From the IMG/VR virus record IMGVR_UViG_3300011116_000448, positions 1 through 64,000 of that record: a stretch of DNA of 64,000 nt. The stretch is one strand, 5' to 3'. Source of the DNA: a virus. The stretch's first letter is position 1. Each line of letters opens with the position of its first letter. Below, piece after piece: positions 2,289 through 63,708 of this stretch. Under the pieces are notes generated by a model. That model saw only the letters and a list, made by a program, of their open reading frames with translations. It searched no databases and was not told the DNA's origin. The position numbers and the translations under genes were made by a program.

Positions 2289-3218
2289 ATGGCACAATTT
2301 CAGGATTTGATTAAAGACATCAACAACTTTCTAGAGAATCCTGAGAGCGAAATCTCGGAAGATGGTCTCCATGAATTCATGACTAACATGGAGGCCACCA
2401 TCCGGGACGCCTTTAGTGGGAAACGAAGAAACCGTCAAAAAGAAGAAAAAAAGCTCGTAGCATCTAACATCGGGCTTCCCCGAAGGCGCTTGTGGTACGC
2501 CATGCGCACTCCAGCAGAAGAGCGACCACAGCTAACTGCCCAGACCCGTATGACCTTTCTGTACGGTTCTATTGTTGAGAATTTGGTGTTGTTCTTGGCA
2601 AAAGAAACTGGGCATGATGTAACTGAAGAACAGAAGCGGATTGTAGTCAATGGCGTGTCTGGCAAAAAAGACTGTCGTATTGACGGCCTCGTCACTGATG
2701 TAAAATCCGCTTCTTCTTTTTCCTACAAGAAGTTTGCTAACGGTGACTTTTTGATGAATAAAGACGACCAAGCAGACCCCTTTGGGTATAAGTATCAGCT
2801 TGGTTTGTACATGGAAGATGCAAACGACCAAGAAGGTGCTTTCCTTGTCATCAACAAAGAGAATGGTGACATGACTGCTGTGATGTTGGACAGGGGATTT
2901 GATATCCCGGATGTCAACCATAAGATTGAGCAAGCTCGAATTGATATCGAAAAAGACACGCCTCCCCCTGAAAAGTGCTACCCTGAAATTCCACGCGGTA
3001 AAAGTGGTAATCACGTCCTTCATCGACTGTGTACGTTTTGTGAATTCAAGCATAAATGCTGGGAAGACGCAAACGACGGCAAGGGTTTGATTGAACATCA
3101 GTACTCCGATGGAAAAGCTTATTTCACACGTCTTGTAAAAGAACCTCAACAAGGGAAGAAAAGTGAACAACAACCAACTGATGGCGCAGTTTCAGAAGAA
3201 CCTTCTGGGAATAGCTGA
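2289..3218 (+). CDS. PD-(D/E)XK (RecB/Cas4-like) exonuclease
   Basis: A 309-residue nuclease expected to resect DNA ends or degrade host DNA. The core is DCRIDGLVTDVKSASSF, giving the D and (D/E)XK ligands (Asp of RIDG and Asp-Val-Lys). A YQLGLYM helix with the conserved Gln of RecB-family enzymes follows. Near the C-terminus CTFCEFKHKCW supplies three cysteines, as in Cas4/AddB-like proteins that hold a metal or Fe-S cluster. Position between the SSB-like gene and endonuclease I matches the slot of T7 gene 6 exonuclease, so it probably plays the same part. The 3' end overlaps the next gene by 56 nt. The acidic-basic N-terminal 90 residues have no clear match. Confidence 0.8.
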   Translation: MAQFQDLIKDINNFLENPESEISEDGLHEFMTNMEATIRDAFSGKRRNRQKEEKKLVASNIGLPRRRLWYAMRTPAEERPQLTAQTRMTFLYGSIVENLVLFLAKETGHDVTEEQKRIVVNGVSGKKDCRIDGLVTDVKSASSFSYKKFANGDFLMNKDDQADPFGYKYQLGLYMEDANDQEGAFLVINKENGDMTAVMLDRGFDIPDVNHKIEQARIDIEKDTPPPEKCYPEIPRGKSGNHVLHRLCTFCEFKHKCWEDANDGKGLIEHQYSDGKAYFTRLVKEPQQGKKSEQQPTDGAVSEEPSGNS

Positions 3219-6388: not shown

Positions 6389-6739
6389 ATGTCCAATAAG
6401 AAAAGTTCAATGAAGGTCCAGATCGGTGGCACCCACTACTCGGAATTTGCCATCCAGCCAACTGATTACATTGTCAAAAACAAACTGGATTGGTACGAAG
6501 CCAACATGGTCAAGTACACGTCCAGACACAAGCTCAAGGGAGGCGCAATCGACGTTAAGAAAGTTATTCATTACGCCCAGATGCTTCTTGAGGAAACTTA
6601 CGGTATTGTATCTACCGTCAAGTACTCAGACGAAGGTGAAACTCCTAGCGTACTGAAAAAGAAACGTCGCAAGCGTAAGGCGACTGTTACCCCGCTGGGT
6701 ACGACTACTGAGGAACCCACTGATGCACAGACCAATTAA
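6389..6739 (+). CDS. DUF3310 protein (T7 gp1.7-like)
   Basis: 116 residues. The segment IGGTHYSEFAIQPTDYIV, then MVKYTSRHKLKGGAIDVKKVIHYAQMLLE, is the DUF3310 pattern (GGxHY...QP...Y, KYxxRxxxKGG...DLxKxxHY). T7 gp1.7 of this family has nucleotide kinase activity, so a dNMP kinase role beside the reductase is reasonable. The tail is lysine/arginine-rich (KKKRRKRKA), unlike the compact family core, and may bind nucleic acid. Family call is firm; enzymatic activity in this protein is inferred. Confidence 0.82.
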   Translation: MSNKKSSMKVQIGGTHYSEFAIQPTDYIVKNKLDWYEANMVKYTSRHKLKGGAIDVKKVIHYAQMLLEETYGIVSTVKYSDEGETPSVLKKKRRKRKATVTPLGTTTEEPTDAQTN

Positions 6740-7508
6740 CGTATTTATTGGCTACGATGAACGTCAGGATTTGGCCTATCGTGTCTGTAAGCTTTCACTA
6801 GAGCGAGCAGCACACCCTGAAGACAAGTTGCGTATCATGCCCCTTGGACACAGGGTATTGCGCGAGGTTGGTCTGTTTAATCGTCAGTGGCGCACTATTG
6901 GTGACGGTACTCGCATTGATGACCTTGACCAGCGTCCATTCAGTACCGATTTTGCCTTTACTCGCTTTTTAACACCCCACTACGCACGCTTCCTTGGTCT
7001 CAACGCCAGCGAACCTTGCGTTTTTGTTGACTCTGATTTTGTCTTTAATCGGGCTATTCATGAAATCCTTGATGAGGTAGACCTGAATAAACCTGTCAGT
7101 GTTGTTAAGCACAATTACAATCCAGCTAACATTGTCAAGATGGACAACCAAGTGCAGATGACCTACAATAAAAAGCTGTGGTCTTCCTTTATGGTGTTTA
7201 ACCCAAGCTTGTCTAATTGTGCACCTTCGGTGGAAGACGTTAATACTAAAGACGGCTCATTCCTTCATCAGTTTAAGTGGCTTGCCAACGACGGTCTGAT
7301 TGGCAGTCTGTATGAAGGCTGGAACTTTATTCCAGATCATTCAGAACCTCGTGTACCATTCCATGAACTTCGCGCTATTCATTACACAGAAGGTGTCCCT
7401 CTGGTAAAGCCACGGTGTAAGTACAGCGCTATGTTTACCCACATTCTTAGTGACTTCCTTCGGGAAGCCGCACGCAACCCAGAGGAAGAGCTTTCTAATG
7501 CGCGTTAA
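6723..7508 (+). CDS. Glycosyltransferase-like protein (GT-A, DSD motif)
   Basis: First gene of a sugar and methyl transfer island. 261 residues, beginning with a beta strand (INVFIGYDERQD), as in GT-A fold transferases that start from Rossmann-like strands. FVDSDFVFN near residue 102 supplies the DxD motif that binds metal and nucleotide sugar. SSFMVFNPSL and HYTEGVPL also occur in families that transfer hexoses. AGGAA lies 7 bases before the ATG. It overlaps the previous gene by 17 nt and the next by 11. Donor and acceptor cannot be read from sequence. Confidence 0.7.
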   Translation: MHRPINVFIGYDERQDLAYRVCKLSLERAAHPEDKLRIMPLGHRVLREVGLFNRQWRTIGDGTRIDDLDQRPFSTDFAFTRFLTPHYARFLGLNASEPCVFVDSDFVFNRAIHEILDEVDLNKPVSVVKHNYNPANIVKMDNQVQMTYNKKLWSSFMVFNPSLSNCAPSVEDVNTKDGSFLHQFKWLANDGLIGSLYEGWNFIPDHSEPRVPFHELRAIHYTEGVPLVKPRCKYSAMFTHILSDFLREAARNPEEELSNAR

Positions 7509-8274
7509 ATTTGTTACGTCCTTGAACGAAGAACTGTGGAATAAGTACGCCAAAACAACCGTAGACTCATGGGTTGATTTCATCAAGGCCGATGAGGGTA
7601 GTATTATTGAATGTTGGATTCTGGGGGCTTTCCCCCGGAACCTTCCCACCCACACAAAGAGTGGTATTCCTTTTGTCTACAAGATGATTGAGACGCAGTC
7701 CTCTGCTTGGGCTAACTTCTTTATGCAGTACAAGGAGCACCCTAAGCCTCGTACAGAGCCTCACAACGCCTACAAGTTTAACTTTGTACCGTTTTCAATC
7801 AAGGTATTTGCTCTTGCCGAGGCCTCTTTTAGTATTAAGGAAGGCGGAGAAAAGTTTGACTACGTGTGCTGGCTTGATGCTGACGTAAAACTTACCAACT
7901 ACGTCAACACAAGCTTCCTTAAGGAACTTATTGGTAACAAGAGTCTTGCTTGGCTTGATCGTGGACCACCTTGGGGTCACGGAGAAACAGGGTTTATTCT
8001 TTGTACTACTTCCGGAGATGCCCTTGACATTTTTCTTCAACAGGCTAATCTATATGGGGCTGGTCAGCTTTTTTACTTTGCTGAATGGCACGATGCCTTT
8101 ATCTTTACGTCACTTATCCGTCTGAAGACCTTTATGGAGTTTCCTGATTTCCAAGTCCAGAACCTTAATTTGGATATGGGTTCAAAACATAAAGACGGAC
8201 TGTACCCTTTTGAAACCAGCCCGCTGAACAGTCACATGATTCACTACAAGGGTAATACTAAAGAAAAAGTATGA
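7498..8274 (+). CDS. Glycosyltransferase-like protein (DAD motif)
   Basis: 258 residues from the ATG at 7498, which has AGAGGAAGAG just upstream. It begins with a strand (VKFVTSLNEELW) and carries CWLDADVKLT near residue 128, a DxD-type site in a hydrophobic strand. A conserved-looking HGETGF and a late WHDAFIF with Asp follow, then SHMIHYKG near the end. This layout matches GT-A glycosyltransferases of surface glycan clusters. It is not a close copy of the preceding gene. It overlaps the next gene by an ATGA. Specificity is unknown. Confidence 0.68.
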   Translation: MRVKFVTSLNEELWNKYAKTTVDSWVDFIKADEGSIIECWILGAFPRNLPTHTKSGIPFVYKMIETQSSAWANFFMQYKEHPKPRTEPHNAYKFNFVPFSIKVFALAEASFSIKEGGEKFDYVCWLDADVKLTNYVNTSFLKELIGNKSLAWLDRGPPWGHGETGFILCTTSGDALDIFLQQANLYGAGQLFYFAEWHDAFIFTSLIRLKTFMEFPDFQVQNLNLDMGSKHKDGLYPFETSPLNSHMIHYKGNTKEKV

Positions 8275-8987
8275 AGACCATTATGGTATCTGGTGGATTT
8301 GACCCCATTCACATGGGTCACGTCAACCTGTTTAGGAACGCAAGTAAACATGGAAAACTCATTGTTGCACTCAATTCAGATGATTGGCTCATCCGTAAGA
8401 AAGGCTTTTGCTTTCAGTCTTGGGAGGAGCGAAAAGGGATTATCGAAGCTCTTAAATTCGTTGAGCGTGTGGTCCCCGTTGACGACACAGACGGAACTGT
8501 CTGTACTGCCCTTCGAGACCTTAAGCCTGACTTCTTCGGAAATGGTGGAGATAGAAAATCAGACAATACACCTGAAGTCGGCTTGTGTAACGAGTTGGGC
8601 ATCGGGAACATTTGGAATCTTGGGGAGCCCAGTACAGACCTACTACACTCGTCACACATCTTACGCCAGCGTCGTGTCAGACGTGACTGGGGCACCTACG
8701 AAGTAATTGCTTCGGGGCCTTGGTACCAAGTAAAGCGGCTTGTTGTAGACCCCGGTGGCAAGACTTCTATTCAGTACCACAAGCTACGTGATGAGTACAT
8801 CTTTGGTGACAATATGAAGGCTTGGATCAAGCCAAATCAAATTCACCAGATTGCAAATGAACATCCTACCGAACCCCTAGAATTAATTGAAATTCAGTTG
8901 GGTGATGTACGAGAAGATGATATTGTACGCCTCAGTAACGAACATCGTCCACTTCTAAAGCATCGTATTAGGAACTCTGTGAAGTGA
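8271..8987 (+). CDS. Nucleotidyltransferase-cupin fusion (sugar activation)
   Basis: Two domains in 238 residues. Residues 1-130 are a cytidylyltransferase-like domain: VSGGFDPIHMGHVNLF has the HxGH nucleotide-binding motif, followed by ALNSDDWLIRKKG and SWEERKGIIEAL, as in the RfaE C-terminal domain and glycerol-phosphate cytidylyltransferases. Residues 145-230 match the cupin of type II mannose-6-phosphate isomerase/GDP-mannose pyrophosphorylases: RRDWGTYEVI, YQVKRLVVDPGG, PLELIEIQLGD and EDDIVRL. The cupin seems shortened in its middle, where a beta pair is missing. It probably activates or isomerises a sugar for the flanking transferases. The reaction is inferred; the two-domain layout is visible directly. 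Confidence 0.8.
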   Translation: MKTIMVSGGFDPIHMGHVNLFRNASKHGKLIVALNSDDWLIRKKGFCFQSWEERKGIIEALKFVERVVPVDDTDGTVCTALRDLKPDFFGNGGDRKSDNTPEVGLCNELGIGNIWNLGEPSTDLLHSSHILRQRRVRRDWGTYEVIASGPWYQVKRLVVDPGGKTSIQYHKLRDEYIFGDNMKAWIKPNQIHQIANEHPTEPLELIEIQLGDVREDDIVRLSNEHRPLLKHRIRNSVK

Positions 8988-9562
8988 CTACATTAATCTC
9001 TGACAATATGAAATATTTGAATGAAGAGCTGCACACACGTATGCAAAAGTACGGAACATCAGCTTATAAAAATCTGGATAAAATTATTCCCCCTTTTATT
9101 CAGAAGTACAGTATCAAGGAGATACTTGACTACGGTTGTGGAAAGGGTACTCTACGGGCTGCTCTTGTGCAGATGCGAGCACCTATTAAGGTTGTCAACT
9201 ATGACCCTTGTATGCCTGAGTTTAGTGTACGGCCAGAGGGTACTTTTCAAAGCGTCCTTTGCAATGATGTTTTGGAACATGTAGAGCCAGAGTTTCTAGA
9301 CAATGTCCTTCAAGATATTCTTAACTACGGTAAAGACTATTATTACCTGAGCATTGGGCTTACTGAAAGCAAAAAGAAGTTGGCAAACGGACAGCAAAAC
9401 CATCTGATTGTAGAAAACTCTGAATGGTGGAAAATGCGGCTTGTCAATAACGGCTTTAGAATTCTCGAAACTTTGGAAGACGAAAGTAATCCAAGTCATC
9501 CTGAACAAAGACTTTACATTGTAATTTGCAAGAAAGAAGAAGATACAAATTATGGCAATTAA
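8984..9562 (+). CDS. Class I SAM-dependent methyltransferase
   Basis: 192 residues from a GTG at 8984 that overlaps the preceding stop (an ATG at 9008 is the alternative start). ILDYGCGKGTLRAAL is SAM-binding motif I (about residue 47), VVNYDPC is the acidic strand 2, and LCNDVLEHVEPEFLDNVL is the motif IV region common in Methyltransf_11/23 enzymes. The rest is a typical Rossmann-like methyltransferase with C-terminal strands. Within a sugar island the likely substrate is a glycan or nucleotide sugar, though DNA or protein cannot be excluded. Confidence 0.82.
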   Translation: MTTLISDNMKYLNEELHTRMQKYGTSAYKNLDKIIPPFIQKYSIKEILDYGCGKGTLRAALVQMRAPIKVVNYDPCMPEFSVRPEGTFQSVLCNDVLEHVEPEFLDNVLQDILNYGKDYYYLSIGLTESKKKLANGQQNHLIVENSEWWKMRLVNNGFRILETLEDESNPSHPEQRLYIVICKKEEDTNYGN

Positions 9563-10265
9563 GTTGACTATGCAGTCTAATATGAACAGCGGGGAAACCG
9601 CTGAACGAATTCTTGACAACGAAATTGATTGGGATTTTGCAGGTAAGTTCAATCCCGGTCTTGTCAAGCAGGCGCAGAATCTCTGGGAGTTTGACCAGTG
9701 GATTTCTTGGATCAAGGCAAACTGGGATTTTCCAATGAATCGACCGTTCAACTACCTTGAAATTGGATCTTACGCAGGAGAATCTTTGTACTACCTGAGT
9801 CAAGTGTTTCCGAGGGGTTCCGTCATCACGCTGGTTGACCTTGGTGACAATGAAGTTGCACGAGGTATCCTCAAGCGCGTCATTCCTCACATTGAAGAAA
9901 AGTATGGTCACAAGATCAATCTGCTTAGTGGTTTTTCGGACGACAAGCAGATCATTCATCAGGCCAAAGCTTACCCACAGGGCCAGAAAAAGTACGACAT
10001 GTTGTTCATTGATGCCAATCATGATTTCAAGTGGGCATACAAGGACTTTATCAACTATCGTGACCTTGCAAATGTGATTGCCTTTCACGACATCAGTGAT
10101 TTCAATATCATCAAGACGGTAATCAAGTACAAGTACGAGATTGCCAATGCAGCACACTTGTGGAAGTCAATTACTTCTGTGCTCCCTGCGTATTGCTGGA
10201 CACAGTTTGTAGATCAGAATATGGACCTAAAGCCGCGTGGTATCGGAGTTGTTCAACTGCCATGA
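9552..10265 (+). CDS. Class I methyltransferase, Methyltransf_24-like
   Basis: 237 residues. YLEIGSYAGESLYYLSQVFP (about residue 65) is motif I of the cephalosporin hydroxylase/Methyltransf_24 type, ITLVDLGD is strand 2, and DMLFIDANHDFKWAYKDF with IAFHDI is the diagnostic D-x-x-H...HD pattern of that group. Such enzymes methylate sugars in O-antigen and antibiotic pathways. It overlaps its neighbours by 11 and 4 bases, so the island reads as one operon. The exact substrate is unknown. Confidence 0.8.
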   Translation: MAIKLTMQSNMNSGETAERILDNEIDWDFAGKFNPGLVKQAQNLWEFDQWISWIKANWDFPMNRPFNYLEIGSYAGESLYYLSQVFPRGSVITLVDLGDNEVARGILKRVIPHIEEKYGHKINLLSGFSDDKQIIHQAKAYPQGQKKYDMLFIDANHDFKWAYKDFINYRDLANVIAFHDISDFNIIKTVIKYKYEIANAAHLWKSITSVLPAYCWTQFVDQNMDLKPRGIGVVQLP

Positions 10266-10996
10266 TTAATATCTGCACCTTCTTTTGGGATGATCCGAAT
10301 GCAAAGCACACCAACAACTACGCCTTTACCTCTAAACACGTTAACCGACTCGGTCGTGCCCTACGAGAAAATCTTACGATCCCTTATGAATACACAGTTA
10401 TTACTGAGGATCCCGGCGGCATTGACGTTGGCCTCGCCCGTGTGGTTCCTCTTTGGAACGAGTTCAGGGATCTTGGTAGGTGTTTTGTTCGTTTGCCTTT
10501 TTATTCTGAGTCTGTGCGGTCTGTTCTTGGTGACCGTATTGCAAACATTGACCTCGATGTTGCTATTATTGGAAACGTCGATCACATCTTTGGAAGAAAA
10601 GAGCCTTTTGTAGGGTATAAGGATACCAAGAACCCCCGTTGCTACTCAGGTGCCTTCTACATGATGGATACAGGAGCCAAGGCTCAGGTGTACAACTCGT
10701 TCAAGCGCATGTATCACATGATCCCTAGCGACGTACGTCAGCAGGTCTTTAAAACTGAATACAACAAGCTTAGTCCTTTTGTTGGCTCCGATCAGTCGTG
10801 GCAGACAGAAGTCCTTGGTGTAGGTCTTCCAAAGATTACTCAGGAAGATGGTGTTTGGGACTACTGGTCAATTGAACATCTACCAGAGCCTCCAGCTAAC
10901 GCTAGGATCGTCTTTGTCAATGGAATGACCCGGGACGTTAGTATGCCTTCGTTCCATGCCAAGCATCCTTGGATGGATAAGTATTGGAATAGTTGA
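10262..10996 (+). CDS. Glycosyltransferase-like protein (DLD motif)
   Basis: 244 residues from an ATG overlapping the preceding stop (ATGA at 10262). It starts with INICTFFWDD, a strand typical of GT-A enzymes. RIANIDLDVAIIGNVDHIF near residue 92 holds a DLD site for metal and nucleotide sugar, then YSGAFYMMDTG and GSDQSW, which are common in GT8-like and related phage transferases. It ends WMDKYW. Third transferase-like gene of the island; the substrate is unknown. Confidence 0.68.
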   Translation: MINICTFFWDDPNAKHTNNYAFTSKHVNRLGRALRENLTIPYEYTVITEDPGGIDVGLARVVPLWNEFRDLGRCFVRLPFYSESVRSVLGDRIANIDLDVAIIGNVDHIFGRKEPFVGYKDTKNPRCYSGAFYMMDTGAKAQVYNSFKRMYHMIPSDVRQQVFKTEYNKLSPFVGSDQSWQTEVLGVGLPKITQEDGVWDYWSIEHLPEPPANARIVFVNGMTRDVSMPSFHAKHPWMDKYWNS

Positions 10997-10997
10997 T

Positions 10998-11939
10998 ATG
11001 AGACAGCCAAGCGGACTAGTTAAGAATGCTTCAGACGGTATGGGTATCAAGGTAACTCCTAGGGACTCAGTGCCGACTGAAGAAATCGTCAAGAACGCCG
11101 TAGAGAATATGGACTTGATGCCCAAGGACTGCTTTGTAACCAAGTCAAAGATCAATGACGACACAGCTTGGATTGCCAGTGCAGGACCTTCCCTTGAACG
11201 TAATTTGCGTCTTGGCTATTTGAAGCCGGAGTGGTTTGCCGATGGACAACCTAATAGACTCTTCACAGTTAAACATGCTCTACCAACGTTGGCTAAGTAC
11301 GGGCTGCGACCACACTTTTGCGTTGTGTTGGACCCTCGACCCATCCAAGGGGTTAGTACTCACGGACATATCCGAGAAACTCTTTACTCCAAAGCCCCTA
11401 AGTCCACCAAGTTCCTTGTAGCGTCCATGACGCATCCAAGCGTCACCAAGTGGCTCATTCGTAACGGCTACGAGGTGTTTGGGTGGCACAGTGCAGCCAA
11501 CGGTCTGGTTCCTACCAAAGACAAGCCAAGCCCACTAAAGGACGTAAATGCCTTTGTACAGGGCGGTACGTGCAGTGCTACGCGTACTATTTCTCTTTCT
11601 CACTTTCTTGGCTTTCGCAAGGCCAATCTTATTGGATTTGACTCTTCACTTGCAGGTGATCCGATCAATCCAAATGAGACAGACACAATTGATGGCGCAC
11701 CCGTCAAAAAGTACTGGAAGACTGCTGTAGGCGGTTCACGAGAGTTTTGGACTACGGGTGAGCTTATTGCCCAGCTTCAGGACTTGGAGATGTTCTTCAC
11801 TGATCCAATTGCCGATGTGGAACTCAGCATGATTGGTACCGATAAAGATGACTCTCTTGCTGGAGCATTGATGGAGACAATCCCAAACAAGACCAAGTTG
11901 AACTCTTACAAGAGTATTTTTGGACCGTGGAAAGCATGA
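10998..11939 (+). CDS. DUF115/MAF-like protein (motility accessory factor family)
   Basis: 313 residues from the ATG at 10998. AWIASAGPSLERNL (about residue 57) is the GPSL motif of the DUF115 family, followed by VVLDPRPIQG and a late LIGFDSSL. The family includes MptE-like enzymes and the Maf proteins that attach nonulosonic acids to flagellins. In a phage sugar island it could transfer an acidic sugar to a glycan or protein. The membership is visible from the motifs; activity is inferred. It overlaps the next gene by ATGA and closes the island. Confidence 0.72.
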   Translation: MRQPSGLVKNASDGMGIKVTPRDSVPTEEIVKNAVENMDLMPKDCFVTKSKINDDTAWIASAGPSLERNLRLGYLKPEWFADGQPNRLFTVKHALPTLAKYGLRPHFCVVLDPRPIQGVSTHGHIRETLYSKAPKSTKFLVASMTHPSVTKWLIRNGYEVFGWHSAANGLVPTKDKPSPLKDVNAFVQGGTCSATRTISLSHFLGFRKANLIGFDSSLAGDPINPNETDTIDGAPVKKYWKTAVGGSREFWTTGELIAQLQDLEMFFTDPIADVELSMIGTDKDDSLAGALMETIPNKTKLNSYKSIFGPWKA

Positions 11940-12685
11940 AGACTCATCTCGTTATTGGAGATGCCCACTCAAATCCTAAGGTAGACAACCGAAGGTTTGA
12001 TTGGCTTGGTAATTTTATTGAGGACAAACGTCCTGACGTAATCATTGACATAGGAGATTGGGGTGACTTCGATTCCATCGGAAAATACAATAAAGGTACT
12101 GGAGACGCGTGGAACTCAACATATAAAGATGATCTTGAGTGCTACCATGATGCATCGCGACGCGCTTTTGGACGAATTGCCCGCATTAGAGGATATAAAC
12201 CACGTATCATCCGCATTGGTGGAAATCATGAAGAGGGACGAATTGATTCTTTTGTTAAACAGAATCCTGAGTTCAAGGGCACAATATCAGTTCACGACTT
12301 ACGAGTTTCGGATTTCGGAGGGAAATATACAGCATTTCGTGATGTCGCCGTCGTGGATGGGATTGCCTACAGCCACTACTTCTACGACAAGGACTCCAGA
12401 TACTCCATAAGCACTGCTCGTGCTGTCCTTAACAAGAAGCATATGTCCTGTACTTGGGGTCATTCCCACATCAGAGATATGGCTGAAAGCGTCAGTGCAG
12501 ACAAGCGTAGAGTTATTTCACTTAATGTGGGATGCTACCTTGACCCAGACCAGCAGATGGGTTACGCTGGTCCCCAAGGTAACGCTAGATGGTGGTCTGG
12601 TCTGGTACTGAAGCAAAACGTAAACAAGGGATCTTACGATCCTCAATTTTTTGGCATTGATTACATAAAGAGGCACTATGCTTAA
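11936..12685 (+). CDS. Calcineurin-like metallophosphoesterase
   Basis: 249 residues from an ATG that overlaps the DUF115 stop. All metal-binding motifs are in order: GDAH (residues 8-11), IGDWGDFD, GGNHEEGR, a mid-protein YSHYF and WGHSH. This marks a dinuclear metal phosphatase or nuclease. Possible roles are dephosphorylation of sugar intermediates from the island, RNA or nucleotide hydrolysis, or a phage-type protein phosphatase. Fold and catalytic site are secure; the substrate is open. Confidence 0.9.
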   Translation: MKTHLVIGDAHSNPKVDNRRFDWLGNFIEDKRPDVIIDIGDWGDFDSIGKYNKGTGDAWNSTYKDDLECYHDASRRAFGRIARIRGYKPRIIRIGGNHEEGRIDSFVKQNPEFKGTISVHDLRVSDFGGKYTAFRDVAVVDGIAYSHYFYDKDSRYSISTARAVLNKKHMSCTWGHSHIRDMAESVSADKRRVISLNVGCYLDPDQQMGYAGPQGNARWWSGLVLKQNVNKGSYDPQFFGIDYIKRHYA

Positions 12686-15081: not shown

Positions 15082-15116
15082 CACCGGAGTTGATCGCCCG
15101 GTGCATTTCTTTTGTT
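15082..15116 (+). terminator. Rho-independent terminator after the endolysin
   Basis: CACCGG (15082-15087) pairs with CCGGTG (15098-15103) around a 10-base loop, followed by C and the T-rich ATTTCTTTT. It lies between convergent operons. A second hairpin, CCATAC/GTATGG, sits about 80 bases upstream in the same gap. Confidence 0.6.
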
Positions 15117-15759
15117 ATTGGGTAAAGTGGATCACACCATTCCACCCAATAATATCCCCGGCAAAGTTACGGGCAGGTGTGGCAATAGCGTGGACTTTAA
15201 CTGGCTGATTGGTTGTCAAGTTGTGCAATCGGTAGTGCAAGTTAAAGTCCCGCTCTTGGTCTATTGCACGTTCCCACTCTCTAGTAACAATATCCCGGTC
15301 TTCTGGGTAGATAACATTCTCCCAATTGTTACCCACAAAGTCTGCCATAGAGCCTCCTACAGCCTTACGAAGGGCGTCATTGACCCAAGAATAGTTACCC
15401 TTCCTGTCGCAAGCCCAAACCCCTTGGTTGATTGTATCCAGCAGCAAAAGACGTTCAGCTTGACTGATACTGACAGCAGTCTCCAACCTGTTCAACTGGT
15501 CCTTGATTGAAGAACCCCCATTGGGTTTCAGTTCCTTGATAATCTCGTCAAGCTTACCCCCAAGTGTTGACTCCAAAGCGTTCAATCTTGTTGGGGACTT
15601 ATAGATACTTGCAACAAGATCTATAACTGGCTTAACGGTACTGTTATACATAGGAACTGCCACCTGATTGTAGAATGCAAATAGTATGGTTAAAAACGTA
15701 AGAATCGAACCCACAAAGACAATGTCAAAGTGTTCTTTTAAGTAGTTGAAGTAGTCCAT
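15115..15759 (-). CDS. Membrane-anchored PAS-domain protein
   Basis: 214 residues from the ATG at 15759, just past the stop of the giant virion gene; an in-frame start at 15855 would lie inside that gene. One transmembrane segment (VFVGSILTFLTILFAFY, about residues 14-30) is followed by a helical linker of some 75 residues with heptad leucines. A C-terminal PAS fold follows: LLDTINQGVWACDRKGNYSW, VNDALRKAVGG, PEDRDIVTREWERAID, and a closing strand DIIGWNGVIHFT. No kinase, cyclase or DNA-binding output domain is attached. PAS domains sense ligands, redox or membrane state. As the last gene of the late operon and next to the endolysin, it might time lysis or act as a holin-like sensor; this is inference. 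Confidence 0.75.
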   Translation of the reverse strand: MDYFNYLKEHFDIVFVGSILTFLTILFAFYNQVAVPMYNSTVKPVIDLVASIYKSPTRLNALESTLGGKLDEIIKELKPNGGSSIKDQLNRLETAVSISQAERLLLLDTINQGVWACDRKGNYSWVNDALRKAVGGSMADFVGNNWENVIYPEDRDIVTREWERAIDQERDFNLHYRLHNLTTNQPVKVHAIATPARNFAGDIIGWNGVIHFTQ

Positions 15760-15767
15760 TGGATCAG

Positions 15768-18700
15768 TTACTCTTTGTCCCGTGTCAAGATATTCTGGTA
15801 ACGACGTTCTTGTTGTGTAGGCTTTTTGATCTTTCCCGGATTCTTTTTCTGCCACAGACGTTCCTGAACGCTTGAGCGGAAACCTCTCCAGAAGTTAGAA
15901 TCAAGTCTGATGCCGTTAGCTTTAGCGTATTCACGCAAATCTTTGGTGACATCCGCCCGCATCTCTCGACCCTCTTGGTATTTTTCATTGTCATCTTGAG
16001 TTGACCCCAAATACATAAGGTACTCAGCCGTTGCTACGCGCTCGGCCAAACGGGACTTCCACCCAGTAAACTCTTGGTTGGCGCGCTGCTGCATGTACAG
16101 ACGTTCACGTTCTTGTGTCTTCTCAAGGGGCGTAAAGCCCGTAAGCTGACCAAGTACGTCAAACGGCCTAGTTCCATCCTCATTAGTATCTTTGAGTATT
16201 TTACCAGACTTGGTTTTCCAGTAATTTTCAGGCTCAGTAACCATTTGAGCCGTCTTAGCCACGTCCTTGCCAACCGAAGGCATAAAGGGCTGGATCTTCT
16301 CCAAAGCTGACTTGCTTGACGATCCACTGAGTACGTCAGCCGCACCGTTCATCATTTCTACAAGGGTACGTCCGGGAACACCCGTAATCTCACCAATCTT
16401 GATTTCATCCTTCAGAAGGCCCATAAGAAGGTTTTGCCCAATAATGTCCTGTGAAAGACGAGAACTCATGTCCAAGCCAAAGGTTGTGGACAGAGCACCC
16501 CTGCGCAAGAACTCAGGCATACCAGCGGCTTCAAGCTGCATGTTCAGGTCTACCATACGCCCATTAACCTTTTCCTCGTATTCTTCGTACAAGGTCTTCC
16601 AAAGGTCGTAGGCAGGAATACCGTTAAGCCCTGAGAAGGCCACGTAGGCACCCATTGTATATAGGCCTGCTAGGACACCCGCTGCTCCCTTTTTGGCCGT
16701 CATTTGCTCAAATAGAAGCTCTAGCATCTGCTGTGGGTAGGTCATGAAGGGGAATGCCAACGTACCGAACAGACCACGCTGCATGGGGCCACGCCCCGTC
16801 TTGCCAAACTCAGCGTGAACAAGACGCATGTGGTAAAGAGCCATTGCGTCTTCAACGTCCATTTTGGTTTTGTTGGTGTCCCAGAAATATTGCCAATCGT
16901 AGTCCGTAGCAAGGTCTTTAATGGCCTTACGGGTAATCTCAGGGGAGTCTTTAAACATATCCCTGAAGGCAATAAATGTCGACTTACGAGTAAAGTTTTC
17001 AGTGTTGCTAACAAAGAAGCCCGCGTTGTTCTTGATGAAGTTAAAGCCCTTTTCAGCCTGTTTAGCACCGGGACCAAGGTGGCTGATATAGTCAGTGTTG
17101 ATTTCCTTGGCAATAGCGTCTTCAGTCATGGACTGCCGGAAGTAGCCCGGATGAGCGTTAAAGAACTCACTGTTCTTGTCCCCCGGCTGCATCTTTACCA
17201 ACTTACTGATACCCTTGCTAAGGTAGGACATGGCACTCAAAGGATTGCCTGTGTAACCTACAAGCACACCTGCGGCTTGTGTGGGTAGGGTTGCAATCTG
17301 CAACATAGCAGTAGATAGACGGTATCCCATGGTCCAGAAGAAGTTAAAGTTGCGCAAAGCTCCGTAGTCAGTGCTTGGGTTAAGCATGTAATCTACATAG
17401 TTGTTAGCGTACTTTTTCAGTTCAGGAGCAACCTTGTCACTTAAGACAATGTCTTTTTGAGCCGCAGCAAGTTCCATCGCTGTGGCTTTACGAGCAATAG
17501 AGTTCTTAAAGGTGTTCTTGTACGCATCCATGACGTGATCCCAATCACGAGAGTATCCTGAAATAACAGGTTCGTCTTGAGCACGCATAAGGTATTTGCC
17601 TTTACCCTGTGCAAGGACATACCGCATGATGTGGTTCTTGGTTGAACCTGCATCTTCGGACCAAGCTTTCATAAAGCTTTGCGGATCTTTAACCCCAGTG
17701 GCAAGCATGTGTGCCAATTCAATGTTACGCTCAAGTCCCGTAGCGTTAAGGCTCTGGATAAGCTCCATCGACAGCATACCCTTTTGGATAAGCTTGGCGG
17801 CAGAGTTGTAGGTCAACTGACCGTGAGTAAGTTCAAAGTCCTTTGGGTCGTACTTCTTGCGAAGCCCAAGCTTGTCAATCTTTTGGTCAGCGTGCTTCTT
17901 TGACGGAAGCGCACTGGTCTTAAGTCCAAGAAGATTGTCAGTGTTGTCAAGAACTTCCATGTGGACAAGATTCCCTGTCTTTCGATCCTTGACCCAAACA
18001 ACGTAGTCACCGAACCGCATGTGTGGAATGTAGGCTACATCTCTGGCAAGCAAAGCTTCACTGTGCTTTAGCTGATCGTGGAATTCCTGCAGCATGTCAC
18101 GGTCCCTGACGTACTTGTTACGGAACTCAGGCAGCGGGTTGTTCTTGATAAGCTTTTCAATGTTGTCAATTGTATCCTGCAAATGAAGCAACGAAGAGTC
18201 CTTACCTACGTTGTACTCCTTGCGGAAGTGCTCTAAAAGCTCGCGAGTAACAGACATGTCTTCGCGAATACCGACCTTAAAGAAGTCAGACACACCCTTG
18301 ACAATGTCAGAGTCTACCTTTGAAAGAACTACGTCGGCATCATTCTCATCCTTGAACACAATACGCCCTTGAGTATCTTCCTTGATACCTTGCTTGGTGT
18401 TTCGAAGATGGTCAATAATATCGCCTGCTCGAATAATTTTATCCATGTCCTTGTTTGCAAGATCCTTGTAGACGTAGTCAAACTGCTTTGTGAACGCAAG
18501 GTCGATGTTTGCGGCAACGTCCTTTTGCTTAACAAAAATGTTATGGACACGCCCGATGATAGGATGCTTGCGGGCCATCTTGGCTACGGAGAACAGGAAA
18601 GACATAGCCCCACCAGCGGTACCAATGTTGTTGGCTTCACTACGCAAGAATGGATCGTTGGAATCTCGTCCAGATCTTGTCTGAGGGTCTTTGAAGTTAG

Positions 18701-44228: not shown

Positions 44229-44678
44229 TTACTTCACTCCAAACATCGGGTTAATATCGCCCGGATTTTCAAGTTTCATGAGAATAAGTTCGTCTGCAAG
44301 CAAGACAAAAGACACGCCCTTTACCATAAGCTTTGTACCCTGATGCTTGCCCCAAACAACGTAGTCGCCCACCTTGCACCACGGCTCGCGGTAGCGCCCG
44401 TGCGGGAAGTACTTGCCGTCGGAAGGCTTGGCGTTTGGATCTGTGTAGCACATAGGACCCATTGCCTTAACCTGACCTACGTTGGTCAAATACTTAACGT
44501 CTTCGGTAAAGGAGGTAGGGAGCATGATTGAACCAACCTTTGCTTCGGGTTCAATGGGGCGGATAAGGATATTCCAACCCGTAACTTCTGGAAGTGGATC
44601 GGGGTCCGGAACGTTATTCGGGGAAACCCAATCAGTCTTGTTACCGTCGTATTTCATTAGCTGACCACTAAGCGACAT
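44229..44678 (-). CDS. GroES-like co-chaperonin
   Basis: 149 residues with GAGGAA before the ATG. After 30 residues the GroES fold appears: WNILIRPIEPEAKVGSIMLP, corresponding to the RPL-type first strand and the mobile loop region, TNVGQVKAMGPMCY, then CKVGDYVVWGKHQG and FVLLADELILMKL at the end. The insert after MCY (TDPNAKPSDGKYFPHGRYREP) is longer than in host GroES. Phage GroES substitutes (T4 gp31 type) pair with host GroEL to fold the capsid protein. Placed right by the scaffold and capsid genes, this fits that use. Confidence 0.82.
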   Translation of the reverse strand: MSLSGQLMKYDGNKTDWVSPNNVPDPDPLPEVTGWNILIRPIEPEAKVGSIMLPTSFTEDVKYLTNVGQVKAMGPMCYTDPNAKPSDGKYFPHGRYREPWCKVGDYVVWGKHQGTKLMVKGVSFVLLADELILMKLENPGDINPMFGVK

Positions 44679-57880: not shown

Positions 57881-57985
57881 ATGCTGAACATCGACTTTGA
57901 AAGGTTTATTCGTGATATGCGAATAGGCCTTTTTATTGTACTCATTAGTCTTGCGCTAGGAGTAGCCTTGGTATCAACCCTTTAA
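57881..57985 (+). CDS. Possible small membrane peptide, 34 aa
   Basis: ATG 57881 to TAA 57985. The translation ends in a hydrophobic helix (MRIGLFIVLISLALGVALVS) after a charged start (NIDFERFIRD). No ribosome binding site is apparent, so expression is uncertain. Confidence 0.35.
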   Translation: MLNIDFERFIRDMRIGLFIVLISLALGVALVSTL

Positions 57986-58000
57986 CTGCGGAGCACTAGC

Positions 58001-61000
58001 GTGCCCATGTTTTATCGCACGACAGACGAGATTAAGACTCTCGACTCTAAGTACTATCCCTCGGATGCAACCACTGGCCCTAGCGGTCATACAAATCCTG
58101 CGGAGTTTATCCCGTACTCAAGCATCCCTTATTTTTCCCCCACAACAATCAGAAACATTGTCAAGGCGTTGCGGACCGACCTTGACTTTGTAGAAATTCA
58201 CTTCTGTAACCCGCAGTTCAATCCGTGCTACGACGGTATGTATGACAACGGAACCTTCTTTGGTACACCTTCTATCTGGTCGTATGGCGGAGGTGCGATG
58301 TACAACGTACCTGTTGAAGTGTTCAATGTATTTGCATTGAATGCACCCAAGGAATCACTGCCGCCAAATCTTATGGAGAGCAAGGGTTTCCTTAGGTTCG
58401 ATGCTTTTACAGGTCGCTGGAGTTTTGTCAGCGCTGAAGCGTACAGAAATATGGACCGTCAGTTGCGCGACAAATGGGATCGTTGGTTGCAGGTAGTGCA
58501 CAAGGGTCGTCCTGAACTCAAGTCGTACTACAATCCCACCAAGAATCTGTTTCTTGTCAAGGTACGCCTTACGTGGCTGCTGAATGAACTACATACTATC
58601 ATCAGATCCCACAACACATCCAACAGAAATTCTCTGCAGCGTTTGCAGCGTGTTACCAGAAAGCGCAACCCAAAACTTGAATCTGGTATTGTTAACGCAG
58701 TGTACACACGCAACGCCTTTAGTAACATTGAGCGGTCACATCTACCGAGCAACGAGAATGTAAGTAAGCTACGTGGCTACCAAGCTGCCCGTAGTTTGCT
58801 GCGCAAAACACAGCGTGATGCCAAGATTCCCTTTGGTTATCACATGATCTTCAATAACTACCCTTCACACTTCTTTAACTTTCTTGACCATCTGTCAAAC
58901 AAGGAAAAGACAGAAATTCGCAAAAGGTACATTGTCGCCAACCCATTTACTACGTGGGGTAATTTGGCTTTTGTTATCCGTAATCGTGAAAGTGAAGTGT
59001 TTTCGTACAACGTACAAACGAGTAATTCACGTACGGGTGAGCGTATAATTGAGAAAAGAATCGCACCCCTTCACTGGCGCACGACAGGTGTTCTTTTTTC
59101 CTGTGATTGCTGCAAGAAAGATGGTTTTTCTCACAGCAATATGTACATTCTGCCACATGTGTCAGAGAAGTGGGCTGAGTGGAAACCTGCTTTTTACAAT
59201 CTTGTAGCGTTCCACAACAGACATCCAGATATCTATTTGCCGCAGTTGCATGTACATCAGTACGCTACACACGCTGCGGAGCTGATGACTATCATGAAGG
59301 TCAATGGTGCTTTGCTGAAGGATTACCGCAAGACATATTTTGACGCAAAGCAAGCAGAACTTGACTACGAAAAGGCTCTGGAGAAGTACCGATCAAAATC
59401 GAGCAAACCCACAGCCAGTGAAACCCCACACCCCTCTGGGTTGTCTAAAAACGAACGGCTTCTTCTTGACCCGGCAAAGATTCCAAACAACATTTTGTGG
59501 GCGCACGACGTATTTAGCTTCAATAAGCGTGCCAATCTGTCTCCAAAAGACCATCTTCAGTTGTTCAAGCGTGGTGTAGATAACGTCAGTGCTTTTATCC
59601 ATGCTGTAGCTACACCTGCTGAAGTGACAAAGAAAAAGGAAGAGGACGCTACACTTGACACAGCAGCACCTGTGCCACCAAGCATCTCTTCAGAGAATGT
59701 TTTGTTGGACCCACTTACGTACTCAAGACTGAAAAGTGAGATGGCTCCTGCACTTACTACTCTTATGGGGGGCTCAGGAATTTATAACTACAATGAAGGT
59801 TGGCCTCACGCTGAACAGTACAGGTCTTATACTGAAGTGCCAACTAAGTTTGATACTGTGTGCCAAAGTTGTACGTCATTGATGGAGAACTGGGGTAGAC
59901 ACATGCGTGCTATTACGTTGAATGCTGACCCAGCAACTATTAAAAACATGTGGCGACAGCAGGTGCAAGATGGACTTAACTTGTTAGGGCGTATCAACGG
60001 ACGTGATACTTGGAATTCAATGGAGTACATGACTTATCCCGGCAAGCATTTCCACAATCTTTTGAGCTACCTTCAGGGTGGTCATTTTACTACTCTTGAA
60101 CGTTTTGGTGGTCGATTCACTGTTGATACTAAAAACCGTCTTATCAAGAATTATTCCGAAAACCCTCTTAACTTTGGAAATTTTTCAAGGTCCAAGGGTG
60201 AGCACGAAAAGCTTTCTCTTGTCAACACCCACATAGGCGTACTTGGTCGTGGTGAGGTTAGTAGAGTCAATGACCAAGTAGAACTTGACACTACGTGTTA
60301 CCTTGGCGTCGAGTTGGAGGTAACTGCCAACAAGCAAGCATTTGATCTTGCCCGTGACGCCTATAACCGATTAGACGTAGGCAATGCTGATGACGCTGCC
60401 ATTAAGGAACTTGGTGTCTTTCTTGCGGCATCTACAGCCAATCGTTACTTTGTCGAGAACGGTAAGTCAGCTATCATAAAGTATGACGGCTCTTGCTCTG
60501 CTATCGGCTTTGAAATTGTTTCGGTACCCGGTACGCACGCTTGGCACCTTAACGAAGCTTGGAAGGGCTTCTTCAAGGAAGACTTTACTGACCCTGAGGC
60601 GCAGGCCTACGCACCCTCCAATCTTTTGAGCGGTTGGCCTAACAACGGCAGGAACGACGCGGTAACCCCGTGGAACAAGGAAGAACGCTGGAAGACGCCT
60701 ACTTGCGGCATTCACATCCACGTATCACGTAACGCGCTTACGCCTCTGCAGCTTGGCAAAATGCTTGTCTACGTTACTGCCAACGAAGATGGGTTTATTG
60801 AGAAGATTGCTGGGCGCAGCGCTAATACGTACTCCAAATTCATCAAGAAAGATTTGAAACACGGTGCGTCACTTGGTCGTGGCGGATCTATTATTACCAG
60901 AGGTTCTAACGCCGCGCTTCGTGCGGAACGCTATGAAGCAATTAATCTTACTTCTACCAAGGGTACTGTGGAGTTTCGTATCTTCCGGTCTAACGTGTCC

Positions 61001-61216
61001 AAAGCTGGATTTTTCAAGTGCATTGACTTTGTTCAGGCTCTCGTAGATTGGACTCGTGATGCTTCTCTTGCCAAGCTCAGTAACAAGCAGTTTATTGGCT
61101 TTGTTATTGACAATCGAGGCAAATACCCTTGGTTCTCCAAGTGGTTGATTGACTCCAAGTACGTCCAGACTGTTGCCACGCTTAACCCACTCTACACGCC
61201 TAACTTCAAAGGTTAA
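58001..61216 (+). CDS. Amidoligase (COOH-NH2 ligase) with long N-terminal region
   Basis: 1071 residues from a GTG at 58001 (GGAG 8 bases upstream). The C-terminal part (about 760-1040) has the amidoligase/glutamine synthetase-like fold signatures: CYLGVELEVTA with metal-ligand Glu, KYDGSCSAIGFEIVSVPG, CGIHIHVSRNAL and GTVEFRIFRSNV. These bind ATP and metals and join a carboxylate to an amine. The N-terminal 760 residues are unrecognised, apart from Cys groups SCDCCKKDG (about 367) and CQSC (about 619) that may bind zinc, and a DxxxE/Lys-rich middle. The next gene is a glutamine amidotransferase, so the ligase may use ammonia or an amine supplied locally. Substrate is unknown: a protein, cell-wall peptide or small metabolite are all possible. 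Confidence 0.82.
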   Translation: MPMFYRTTDEIKTLDSKYYPSDATTGPSGHTNPAEFIPYSSIPYFSPTTIRNIVKALRTDLDFVEIHFCNPQFNPCYDGMYDNGTFFGTPSIWSYGGGAMYNVPVEVFNVFALNAPKESLPPNLMESKGFLRFDAFTGRWSFVSAEAYRNMDRQLRDKWDRWLQVVHKGRPELKSYYNPTKNLFLVKVRLTWLLNELHTIIRSHNTSNRNSLQRLQRVTRKRNPKLESGIVNAVYTRNAFSNIERSHLPSNENVSKLRGYQAARSLLRKTQRDAKIPFGYHMIFNNYPSHFFNFLDHLSNKEKTEIRKRYIVANPFTTWGNLAFVIRNRESEVFSYNVQTSNSRTGERIIEKRIAPLHWRTTGVLFSCDCCKKDGFSHSNMYILPHVSEKWAEWKPAFYNLVAFHNRHPDIYLPQLHVHQYATHAAELMTIMKVNGALLKDYRKTYFDAKQAELDYEKALEKYRSKSSKPTASETPHPSGLSKNERLLLDPAKIPNNILWAHDVFSFNKRANLSPKDHLQLFKRGVDNVSAFIHAVATPAEVTKKKEEDATLDTAAPVPPSISSENVLLDPLTYSRLKSEMAPALTTLMGGSGIYNYNEGWPHAEQYRSYTEVPTKFDTVCQSCTSLMENWGRHMRAITLNADPATIKNMWRQQVQDGLNLLGRINGRDTWNSMEYMTYPGKHFHNLLSYLQGGHFTTLERFGGRFTVDTKNRLIKNYSENPLNFGNFSRSKGEHEKLSLVNTHIGVLGRGEVSRVNDQVELDTTCYLGVELEVTANKQAFDLARDAYNRLDVGNADDAAIKELGVFLAASTANRYFVENGKSAIIKYDGSCSAIGFEIVSVPGTHAWHLNEAWKGFFKEDFTDPEAQAYAPSNLLSGWPNNGRNDAVTPWNKEERWKTPTCGIHIHVSRNALTPLQLGKMLVYVTANEDGFIEKIAGRSANTYSKFIKKDLKHGASLGRGGSIITRGSNAALRAERYEAINLTSTKGTVEFRIFRSNVSKAGFFKCIDFVQALVDWTRDASLAKLSNKQFIGFVIDNRGKYPWFSKWLIDSKYVQTVATLNPLYTPNFKG

Positions 61217-61246
61217 TCTTTTCTTTCAACAAGGAGTATTACTTAA

Positions 61247-62569
61247 ATGTGTTTGATTGCTTACGCACCAAAGAAGTCGCTTATCTCGCTTGCATCCTTG
61301 GAGAATGCCTACGAGAACAACAAGGATGGTTGGGGTATTTGTTATCAGGACCCCGTCTCTGAAGAGCTTATCATTGACAAGCAGCTACTTGACTTTGAGC
61401 AGTTCAAACTTGCATGGAAGATGGTACCTGAGGACGTTCACGTCGGTGTTCACTTTCGATGGAAGACACACGGCGACCTCAGTCGTGACAACGTACATCC
61501 TTACCTGATCCTTGACAAGGCCAACGGTGATCCCGTTGACCTTGCGCTTATGCACAACGGTGTCATCTCGTATATCCACCCACACGGTGAAAAGCGTTCT
61601 GATACGCAGATGTACGTAGACCTGATCTTGCGCCCAATCTTGCTCAAGAACTGGGAACTCATTTACGACCCCAACTTCAAGCTGTTGATTGAGCGTGACA
61701 TCAGCACGGGGTCCAAGTTCCTTATCATGCCCAGCAAGGGTGATCCTATCATCTATAACAAAAAGCAAGGTCATGAACCCAAGGAACAGCCTGACGTTTG
61801 GTATTCAAATTCTTACTCCATCGACTCGCCTACTTGGCGTAGAGGAAAGACCACTGCCAACAATAACAACAACGCGGGCAATGGGTACTCCTACGACAGG
61901 TACCAAAGCAACTTTCCCAGTCCCGGCAACAGAGGGTCAAAAAACGAAGACTACAAGCCCTACATCTGGCCCACCAATCTTACCCCCAAGGAGGAGGAAC
62001 GTAAGAAAGAAATCCTCGCTTTGGTCAAGCCTCACGAAAAGATCCTTGATCGTGTTATGCGTGGTGACAAGTCTCTGCTTGGCTATGGGTGGGTCTTGGA
62101 CGACCGTTGGAATACTATTAGTTGTACTTTCAGTAATCCTTTGGCCGAAAAGCTGAGGAAGTTTATTCGCGACCATACAAAGCGGGTGGAAAAAGAACAG
62201 AAGGAAGCTACATCCAGTAATGTAATTCCTTTACCATCCTCCGCGCCTGAAGGCGTGGATAAAGACACAGAGAAGAGACTGAACCGAGCCAACCTGAAGC
62301 TTAGTTCTAGGGCTGAAACACTTGAGTGGGTACGAGCTAACCCAGATGACGCTACTGATTATTTGATCGACGCAGGGTTCTCAGGCGGCAAGCCTGCTGT
62401 ACTTGATTGGGTCACCAAAGACCTCGACAGGGCTAGCGAACAAGTATACAATTACGCTCATTTCAATAAGTTGATTGATTACAACATCAATCAGCCCACC
62501 CAAGGGTCTTTGAACCTCTTGGATACTGATGAAGATGATTACATGATGGGTGCTTATGGATATGCGTAA
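61247..62569 (+). CDS. Class II glutamine amidotransferase (Ntn hydrolase)
   Basis: 440 residues; AAGGAG lies before the ATG. Met-Cys at the start exposes the catalytic Cys after Met removal. GWGICYQD (about 29), HFRWKTHGDLS (about 69-79, with the Arg that binds glutamine carboxylate), LMHNGV (about 101, Asn-Gly oxyanion hole) and RSDTQMY (about 120) complete the GAT-II active site. The first 200 residues are this domain. The remainder is not recognised: an Asn-rich linker (TTANNNNNAGNGYSYD), then a charged helical region and an acidic end (LDTDEDDYMMGAYGYA). It releases ammonia from glutamine, most likely for the amidoligase upstream 30 bases away. Confidence 0.88.
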   Translation: MCLIAYAPKKSLISLASLENAYENNKDGWGICYQDPVSEELIIDKQLLDFEQFKLAWKMVPEDVHVGVHFRWKTHGDLSRDNVHPYLILDKANGDPVDLALMHNGVISYIHPHGEKRSDTQMYVDLILRPILLKNWELIYDPNFKLLIERDISTGSKFLIMPSKGDPIIYNKKQGHEPKEQPDVWYSNSYSIDSPTWRRGKTTANNNNNAGNGYSYDRYQSNFPSPGNRGSKNEDYKPYIWPTNLTPKEEERKKEILALVKPHEKILDRVMRGDKSLLGYGWVLDDRWNTISCTFSNPLAEKLRKFIRDHTKRVEKEQKEATSSNVIPLPSSAPEGVDKDTEKRLNRANLKLSSRAETLEWVRANPDDATDYLIDAGFSGGKPAVLDWVTKDLDRASEQVYNYAHFNKLIDYNINQPTQGSLNLLDTDEDDYMMGAYGYA

Positions 62570-62745: not shown

Positions 62746-62976
62746 ATGGTCGGACCTCCTGCCCAAGACATACGTAGCCTACTCTTCGGTAACACAGAAG
62801 ACTACTCTGTGTCTTTCCATACAAATGATGAAGGAAAGGTAATTATTCAAATCCTGAATGGCAATCACTCAAGGATTTTTGTAGGTACCAAGGATGATGT
62901 TCAGTCATTCATTGACGCACTGATGAGTGCGTGTGTGCGGGCAGAGTCAATCGAACTTGCCCTTAAAGGTAACTAA
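62746..62976 (+). CDS. Small hypothetical protein, 76 aa
   Basis: ATG 62746 after AAGGAAACAGCCAAA. Mixed alpha/beta protein (SVSFHTNDEGKVIIQILNG, DVQSFIDALMSACVR). No domain recognised. Confidence 0.6.
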   Translation: MVGPPAQDIRSLLFGNTEDYSVSFHTNDEGKVIIQILNGNHSRIFVGTKDDVQSFIDALMSACVRAESIELALKGN

Positions 62977-62980
62977 TACT

Positions 62981-63247
62981 ATGCTTACGTATCCTTTGAA
63001 CTACGATCCAAATACCCTCACTGAAGCGCAGATTTGGAAGAAGGCCATGTATCTTGAGCAAAAGCTTCAAGAACACATCGGTACTGACAAATACATTGGC
63101 AAGAATTCACGGGTGGCTAAAATCACCTTTGAGTGCAATGTTCTTTGGAAGGCTCTGGAGGCCCTCGGGCGGAAAGAGGTATCTCATAACCGGGCATTGC
63201 AGAATAGGGCGTCCTTGACGCTTATTACCCCCGCTACTAAACGGTAG
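62981..63247 (+). CDS. Small hypothetical protein, 88 aa
   Basis: ATG at 62981, five bases after the previous stop. Helical and basic (TEAQIWKKAMYLEQKLQEHIG, ECNVLWKALEALGRKEVS). No family recognised. Confidence 0.6.
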   Translation: MLTYPLNYDPNTLTEAQIWKKAMYLEQKLQEHIGTDKYIGKNSRVAKITFECNVLWKALEALGRKEVSHNRALQNRASLTLITPATKR

Positions 63248-63281
63248 CTTTCTTTACCCACATAAAGGAGTTTAATTGAAC

Positions 63282-63665
63282 ATGGCTAAGTTTCTCAGCA
63301 ACGCACTTAAGGCAGTAACACCCTCGCCCGTTACGGAAGTCCCCTCCAATGGTGGCGGTAGCGTGGTCACTGTTACAGTCAACAAAGAAGCCGTACAGGA
63401 CGACAAGGTGCCCGAGAAGTCATTCTGGTGTGTGGAAGAACCCTTTGTCGTTAATCAGGCGATCCCTAGTGACCTGTCAAAGGCCAGCACTGGCAAAACC
63501 CTTAGTGAAATCAACCCCGTCAAGAGTGCGTTCAATCTCTTCGGGTCTTTTGAAGAAGCTGCCGCGTATGGGCAGCGACTTAATCGTAACCTTGTTATCT
63601 TTGAAATCAAGCCAAGTGCTACCGTAAGGCCGCAGCTTGCCTTGGTTGCCAAGATCGAAGAGTAG
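63282..63665 (+). CDS. Hypothetical protein, 127 aa
   Basis: ATG 63282 with AAAGGAG upstream. Val/Pro-rich N-terminal half (VTVTVNKEAVQDDKVPEKSF), then a conserved-looking ending (SAFNLFGSFEEAAAYGQRL, LVIFEIKPSATVR). No domain recognised. A strong terminator follows. Confidence 0.6.
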   Translation: MAKFLSNALKAVTPSPVTEVPSNGGGSVVTVTVNKEAVQDDKVPEKSFWCVEEPFVVNQAIPSDLSKASTGKTLSEINPVKSAFNLFGSFEEAAAYGQRLNRNLVIFEIKPSATVRPQLALVAKIEE

Positions 63666-63674
63666 TCTACATAA

Positions 63675-63708
63675 ACCCCCTTAGGTATCTTCCTAAGGGG
63701 GTATTTTT
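63675..63708 (+). terminator. Rho-independent terminator
   Basis: ACCCCCTTAGG and CCTAAGGGGGT pair around a 6-base loop (63675-63702), followed by A and five T. It ends the transcript of the preceding gene. Confidence 0.92.

Follow-up and report, generated by a model that had tools for sequence, protein, structure and literature searches.

Gene pairs encoding an amidoligase and a class II glutamine amidotransferase (GAT) have been recorded in several groups of phages. In phiEco32, LUZ24 and RIO-1, a PF12224 amidoligase gene is directly followed by a class II GAT gene in the early region, before the primase/helicase genes (PMC5498523, PMC3890496), and the phiEco32 (gp84-gp83) and LUZ24 (gp18-gp19) pairs lie within a larger cassette (gp77-gp86 in phiEco32), which adds a COOH-NH2 ligase, an ATP-grasp protein and a cyclotransferase. 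The phiEco32-type genes have been called a peptidoglycan modification cassette with reference to a comparative-genomic prediction, not an experiment (PMC5498523), and a prediction of this kind, again not an experiment, is cited where the pair is recorded in OM43 phages (PMC10580990). As relayed by the papers that cite it, the prediction for phiEco32 dates from 2009, and the pair has also been noted in LUZ24-like and RIO-1-like phages. Our literature search found no biochemistry and no tested product for any member of the pair. Closer in layout to the locus described here are the OM43 Methylophilales phages MEP401 and MEP402 (Zobellviridae; PMC10580990), which carry a two-gene module in the same order just ahead of the primase/helicase/polymerase genes, with a zinc ribbon before the ligase domain. 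The uncultured phage MW202733 (Manatee Spring) shows the same gene order, its amidoligase having several CxxC motifs and the GAT lying next to it.

We analyzed the first 64,000 positions (the window) of the linear, 67,345-base virus record IMGVR_UViG_3300011116_000448. As an earlier note on this stretch had proposed, an amidoligase gene adjoins a class II GAT gene. The amidoligase ORF (58001..61216, 1071 aa, GTG start), called as an ORF and matched by Pfam and PHROG families, and the GAT ORF (61247..62569, 440 aa), identified by ORF call, profile and fold searches, both lie on the + strand, as do the other features of this locus given below. They are 30 bp apart, and each has a Shine-Dalgarno-like GGAG/AAGGAG sequence upstream. 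A terminator-like hairpin ahead of the amidoligase (57899..57933; -17.3 kcal/mol, z -5.6) points to the start of a new transcription unit at this gene, and a strong terminator-like hairpin marks the end of the presumed unit (63675..63702; -21.8 kcal/mol, z -5.4). Three small genes follow the GAT, at 62746..62976 (76 aa), 62927..63247 (up to 106 aa) and 63276..63665 (up to 129 aa). Their order is retained in the nearest relatives, with all three kept after the GAT in locus L007 and the latter two in L010. Since the hairpins flank the pair and the small genes, the five look like one transcription unit. In L007 the pair is followed by primase-helicase and polymerase genes, and our record starts inside the matching polymerase; the record therefore probably breaks within the polymerase gene, which would put the pair ahead of the replication genes, the arrangement seen in MEP401/402, phiEco32 and LUZ24.

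Pfam-type searches of the 67-kb record gave no match for the additional members of the phiEco32-type cassette, namely the COOH-NH2 ligase, a RimK-type ATP-grasp protein and a gamma-glutamylamine cyclotransferase (GGACT), the ATP-grasp miss being weak evidence as phiEco32 gp80 itself gets no Pfam match. A short piece is probably missing at the record ends, and we therefore count the record, with that proviso, as a two-gene form and not as a full cassette. The pairing is already predicted in the literature, and what is new here is the oversized ligase, its apparently split zinc ribbon and an N-terminal region without detectable relatives. The ligase is the longest among 150 unique viral relatives, measuring 1071 aa against 546-548 aa in MEP401/MEP402 (22-24% identity) and 518 aa in MW202733 (22-30% identity over the aligned parts), and the GAT has 440 aa against 289-291 aa in MEP401/MEP402. 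A profile of the ligase also matches phiEco32 gp84 (E=4e-9), which, unlike the window protein, starts near the glutamine synthetase (GS) domain and has no room for a zinc ribbon.

The amidoligase fold that had been proposed for the C terminus is borne out by profile and structure searches. Amidoligase_2 (PF12224) matches aa 900-1013 with 23.4 bits against a curated cut-off of 22, and in a genome-level Pfam scan (25.3 bits) this is its sole above-cut-off place in the record; PHROG amidoligase families match as well, with a best E of 8.7e-13. In a structure model built on an alignment of 56 relatives, most of aa 760-1060 has a pLDDT of 75-97, with weaker loops. Its fold matches in the PDB include YbdK, plant glutamate-cysteine ligase, the Pup ligase PafA, the depupylase Dop, GmaS and glutamine synthetases. 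Judged by their entry names, the top 24 matches, only three of which have E<0.001, are all GS-like carboxylate-amine ligases or complexes of these, the first three being YbdK and a Salmonella relative, and the viral matches are amidoligases. Conservation was counted over 233 ligase relatives from phages and bacterial contigs, in which the residues of GxExE, DGS..GxE..P, GxHxH and TxExR, together with Arg939, are present at 97-100%. The corresponding metal/ATP motifs ExE, E, HxH and ExR are all intact in the window ligase: GVELEV (aa 769-774, 60305..60322) contains the two Glu residues predicted to bind Mg/ATP in the GS fold (G and second E 233/233, first E 232/233), DGS...GFEIVSVP (aa 829-843, 60485..60529) the third Glu (E838, 232/233), CGIHIH (aa 902-907, 60704..60721) the HxH motif (both His 233/233) and TVEFRIF (aa 989-995, 60965..60985) the E/R motif (E 232/233, R 233/233). 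The loss of metal-binding Glu residues in relatives, which the earlier note had named as evidence that would speak against its proposal, was not seen, with Glu and His retained in 232-233 of 233. The model and motifs indicate that the ORF ends in a glutamine-synthetase-fold domain of the Amidoligase_2 family, for which ATP-dependent ligation is predicted.

The region ahead of this domain had been described as 760 residues with two cysteine groups and no recognizable family, a description that holds in part. The lineage-specific portion, aa 1-620 (58001..59860), has no family match, mostly has a pLDDT below 50 and contains the putative first zinc-knuckle. Four cysteines form two CxxC pairs about 250 aa apart, CDCC (aa 368-371, 59102..59113) and CQSC (aa 621-624, 59861..59872), the latter with its Cys residues kept in 88-92% of aligned relatives. 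In 129 of the 150 relatives the ligase domain is preceded by a compact zinc ribbon, CxxC-x8-40-CxxC; L010 has its pairs at 333 (CLCC) and 435 (CTMC), and L007, the 5' end of which is cut off, has the second pair. Comparison of these sequences suggests, as the simplest reading, a single zinc ribbon interrupted by inserted sequence, about 250 aa in the window and about 100 aa in L010, with CDCC as its putative first half and CQSC as its second. The AlphaFold model of the N-terminal 700 residues, which comes from a shallow alignment, is without confidence, so this split ribbon is a reading of the sequence. The two cysteine groups are most likely halves of one zinc ribbon that relatives conserve, and not the mark of a new family. 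The rest of the N-terminal region has no significant relative among all ORFs of the fetched loci, a short stretch common to the window ligase and L010 being insignificant (E=0.02). Elsewhere, the amidoligase at L014:5374-6621 has a cysteine-rich N-terminal region with 27 overlapping CxxC motifs, apparently several tandem zinc ribbons.

As a single sequence, the GAT scores below the cut-off of GATase_4 (13.7 versus 23 bits, E=0.03). We attribute this low score to divergence because profile and fold searches recover the class II domain: a profile of the window GAT and four relatives retrieves the glutaminase domain of GlmS (E=5e-6), and Foldseek with the AlphaFold model, in which aa 1-190 form a block with a pLDDT of about 86-98, finds GlmS, GFAT, PurF and EgtC (1xff at E=2.7e-7), with GlmS and PurF outscoring EgtC. 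The active site had been described as intact, and all of its residues are indeed present and conserved in 213/213 GAT relatives: the nucleophile Cys2 (61250..61252), Arg71 of HFRWKTHG (61457..61459), His103, Asn104 and Gly105 of the oxyanion hole HNG (61553..61561) and Asp119 of RSDT (61601..61603). The ORF thus begins with a class II glutaminase (Ntn) domain according to the model, and glutaminase activity is predicted. The extra residues, put at about 240 by the earlier note, amount to about 250 and form a C-terminal extension (aa 191-440, 61817..62566) that matches no family in a Pfam scan. AlphaFold predicts a fairly confident helical stretch at aa 297-406 (297-323 and 339-406) and partial disorder in the remainder. 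No sugar-isomerase or synthase domain was found within the GAT protein.

The two genes occur together almost obligatorily. Searches of IMG/VR with the single proteins gave no match for the ligase and one contig for the GAT; queries with alignments recovered relatives. Among unique loci seeded with the ligase profile, the GAT is adjacent in 70/74, and an amidoligase is present in 67 of the 71 seeded with the GAT profile, these loci being the best-scoring of 475 and 220 relatives, respectively, and not a random sample. Most unpaired seed loci fall at contig ends, and an amidoligase without a detected GAT was seen in L005 and L030. Viral loci usually have the ligase first and the GAT second, and the two most commonly overlap by 10 or 1 bp. 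In bacteria, 72 of 79 loci carry both genes, chiefly in Clostridia and with up to five loci per genome. In C. difficile AR1086-1 the gene next to the amidoligase is not a GAT. A pairing unique to this genome is ruled out by these viral and bacterial counts, and the co-occurrence in other phages that the earlier note had proposed to look for is strong. Five amidoligase-GAT loci were counted in Butyricicoccus pullicaecorum (within the Clostridia loci L171-L249). The bacterial pairs neighbor an integrase in 33 loci and a resolvase in 33 (both named by sequence reading), as well as a DUF960 gene in 26, and we read these neighbors as marking the pairs as cargo of integrative elements or prophages. 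In phages the pair most often neighbors genes for primase, DnaB-like helicase and family A polymerase.

Ligase and GAT distances correlate at 0.83 over 104 pairs in a mirror-tree comparison (permutation maximum 0.11), a value to which shared phage ancestry contributes. Gene fusion was considered as a sign of a complex and rejected: a single frame spans both genes in L230, but an internal MCIIV starts the GAT there, and the near-identical L242 has two ORFs. Two amidoligase genes lie beside the GAT in the phage contigs L012, L015, L020, L027 and L028, which suggests that ligases differing in specificity share one or two GATs.

We consider it fairly probable that the pair forms a two-subunit, glutamine-dependent amide synthetase in which the GAT supplies ammonia and the ligase amidates a carboxylate of a macromolecule. 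Both proteins would probably be made early to midway through infection. The GAT would hydrolyze glutamine with Cys2 to release ammonia, and the C-terminal GS-fold domain of the ligase would use ATP and Mg to convert the carboxylate to an acyl phosphate and couple the ammonia to it, giving an amide. Substrate binding most likely falls to the zinc ribbon together with the enlarged N-terminal part, which makes a macromolecule or a peptide-like precursor the probable target; the zinc ribbon mildly favors the former. Between a peptidoglycan stem-peptide precursor and a protein of host or phage we see little difference in likelihood, and the purpose may be an altered host envelope or altered host proteins during infection. 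Of the amide-forming system proposed by the earlier note, the folds, the residues and the co-occurrence are found as described, and complex formation, ammonia transfer, amidation and their target and purpose are what we infer from them.

Two analogies point away from a synthetase. EgtC shares the GAT fold yet hydrolyzes a gamma-glutamyl amide and supplies no ammonia, and YbdK, the top fold match of the ligase, is a glutamate-cysteine ligase that couples an amine, not ammonia; the window proteins may behave likewise. EgtA is the GCS/GS-like ligase partner of EgtC in ergothioneine synthesis, so that this system, like the window, combines such a ligase with a GAT-II-fold protein; unlike the reading favored here, it serves a small-molecule pathway, and we know of no zinc ribbon in EgtA or EgtC. 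The strongest rival is thus a pair of this type, in which the amidoligase would use an amine to form a gamma-glutamyl (or similar) amide, and the Ntn-type GAT, delivering no ammonia, would later remove the glutamyl group from an intermediate. Besides YbdK and EgtC among the fold matches, a GGACT gene near the pair in 10 loci and a GGCT in the phiEco32 and LUZ24 cassettes (PMC3890496) agree with it. We nevertheless regard it as unlikely: EgtC is outscored by GlmS and PurF, which are true ammonia donors, GGACT is not matched in the window genome, and two genes alone would require a host partner between the steps.

Within amide synthesis, the zinc-ribbon two-gene form may be devoted to aimed protein amidation, the enlarged, lineage-specific N-terminal region picking host proteins (such as those of transcription or replication) and acidic side chains becoming amides so that host proteins would be reprogrammed without proteolysis; we give this narrower version a small chance. 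Also doubtful is a diffusible amide metabolite (a nucleotide, an amino acid or an antibiotic-like compound) made for replication or host takeover. The pair does adjoin replication genes, and GS-like enzymes such as YbdK and GmaS often use free amino acids, but the zinc ribbon of most relatives and the large N-terminal additions suit a macromolecular target better, and conserved neighbors of the pair include no further biosynthetic partner. That the pair is a non-working remnant of a phiEco32-type cassette, as the unmatched ATP-grasp, COOH-NH2 ligase and cyclotransferase families might imply, is very improbable given that every catalytic residue is retained, that relatives, the intact isolates MEP401/402 among them, commonly have the two-gene form, and that residue conservation suggests purifying selection on both genes.

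The interest of the locus lies in the function of a very common module and not in its own newness, as hundreds of phage contigs and many integrative elements of Clostridia keep both genes adjacent with their active sites untouched. Amidation of cell-wall peptides would make the pair a common trick for altering the envelope or blocking superinfection; amidation of proteins would add a new type of protein modification by phages.

The record has several other features. Glycosyltransferase-like genes, a nucleotidyltransferase with a mannose-6-phosphate isomerase-like domain, a methyltransferase, an MptE-like protein (10956-11939) and a metallophosphoesterase occupy window positions 6723-12685, which looks like a small phage-borne glycan-making cluster. 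A ribonucleotide reductase large subunit and a Cas4-type exonuclease (4440-6161 and 2289-3218) lie near the DNA polymerase. A protein with a C-terminal PAS domain (15115-15855, - strand; PAS_4 E=1.5e-9), encoded where the late gene block ends, is unusual for a phage, and a GroES/Cpn10-like protein (44229-44678, - strand; E=8.5e-6) is encoded among the head genes. Just past the window, an RNA-ligase family protein (L008:9779-10390, record 64779-65390; PF09414 E=7e-12) is followed by two short antisense ORFs (L008:10362-10770, - strand), one for a lipoprotein-like small protein (LLASC), which have counterparts in L007 and L010 and are possibly spanin or lysis genes.
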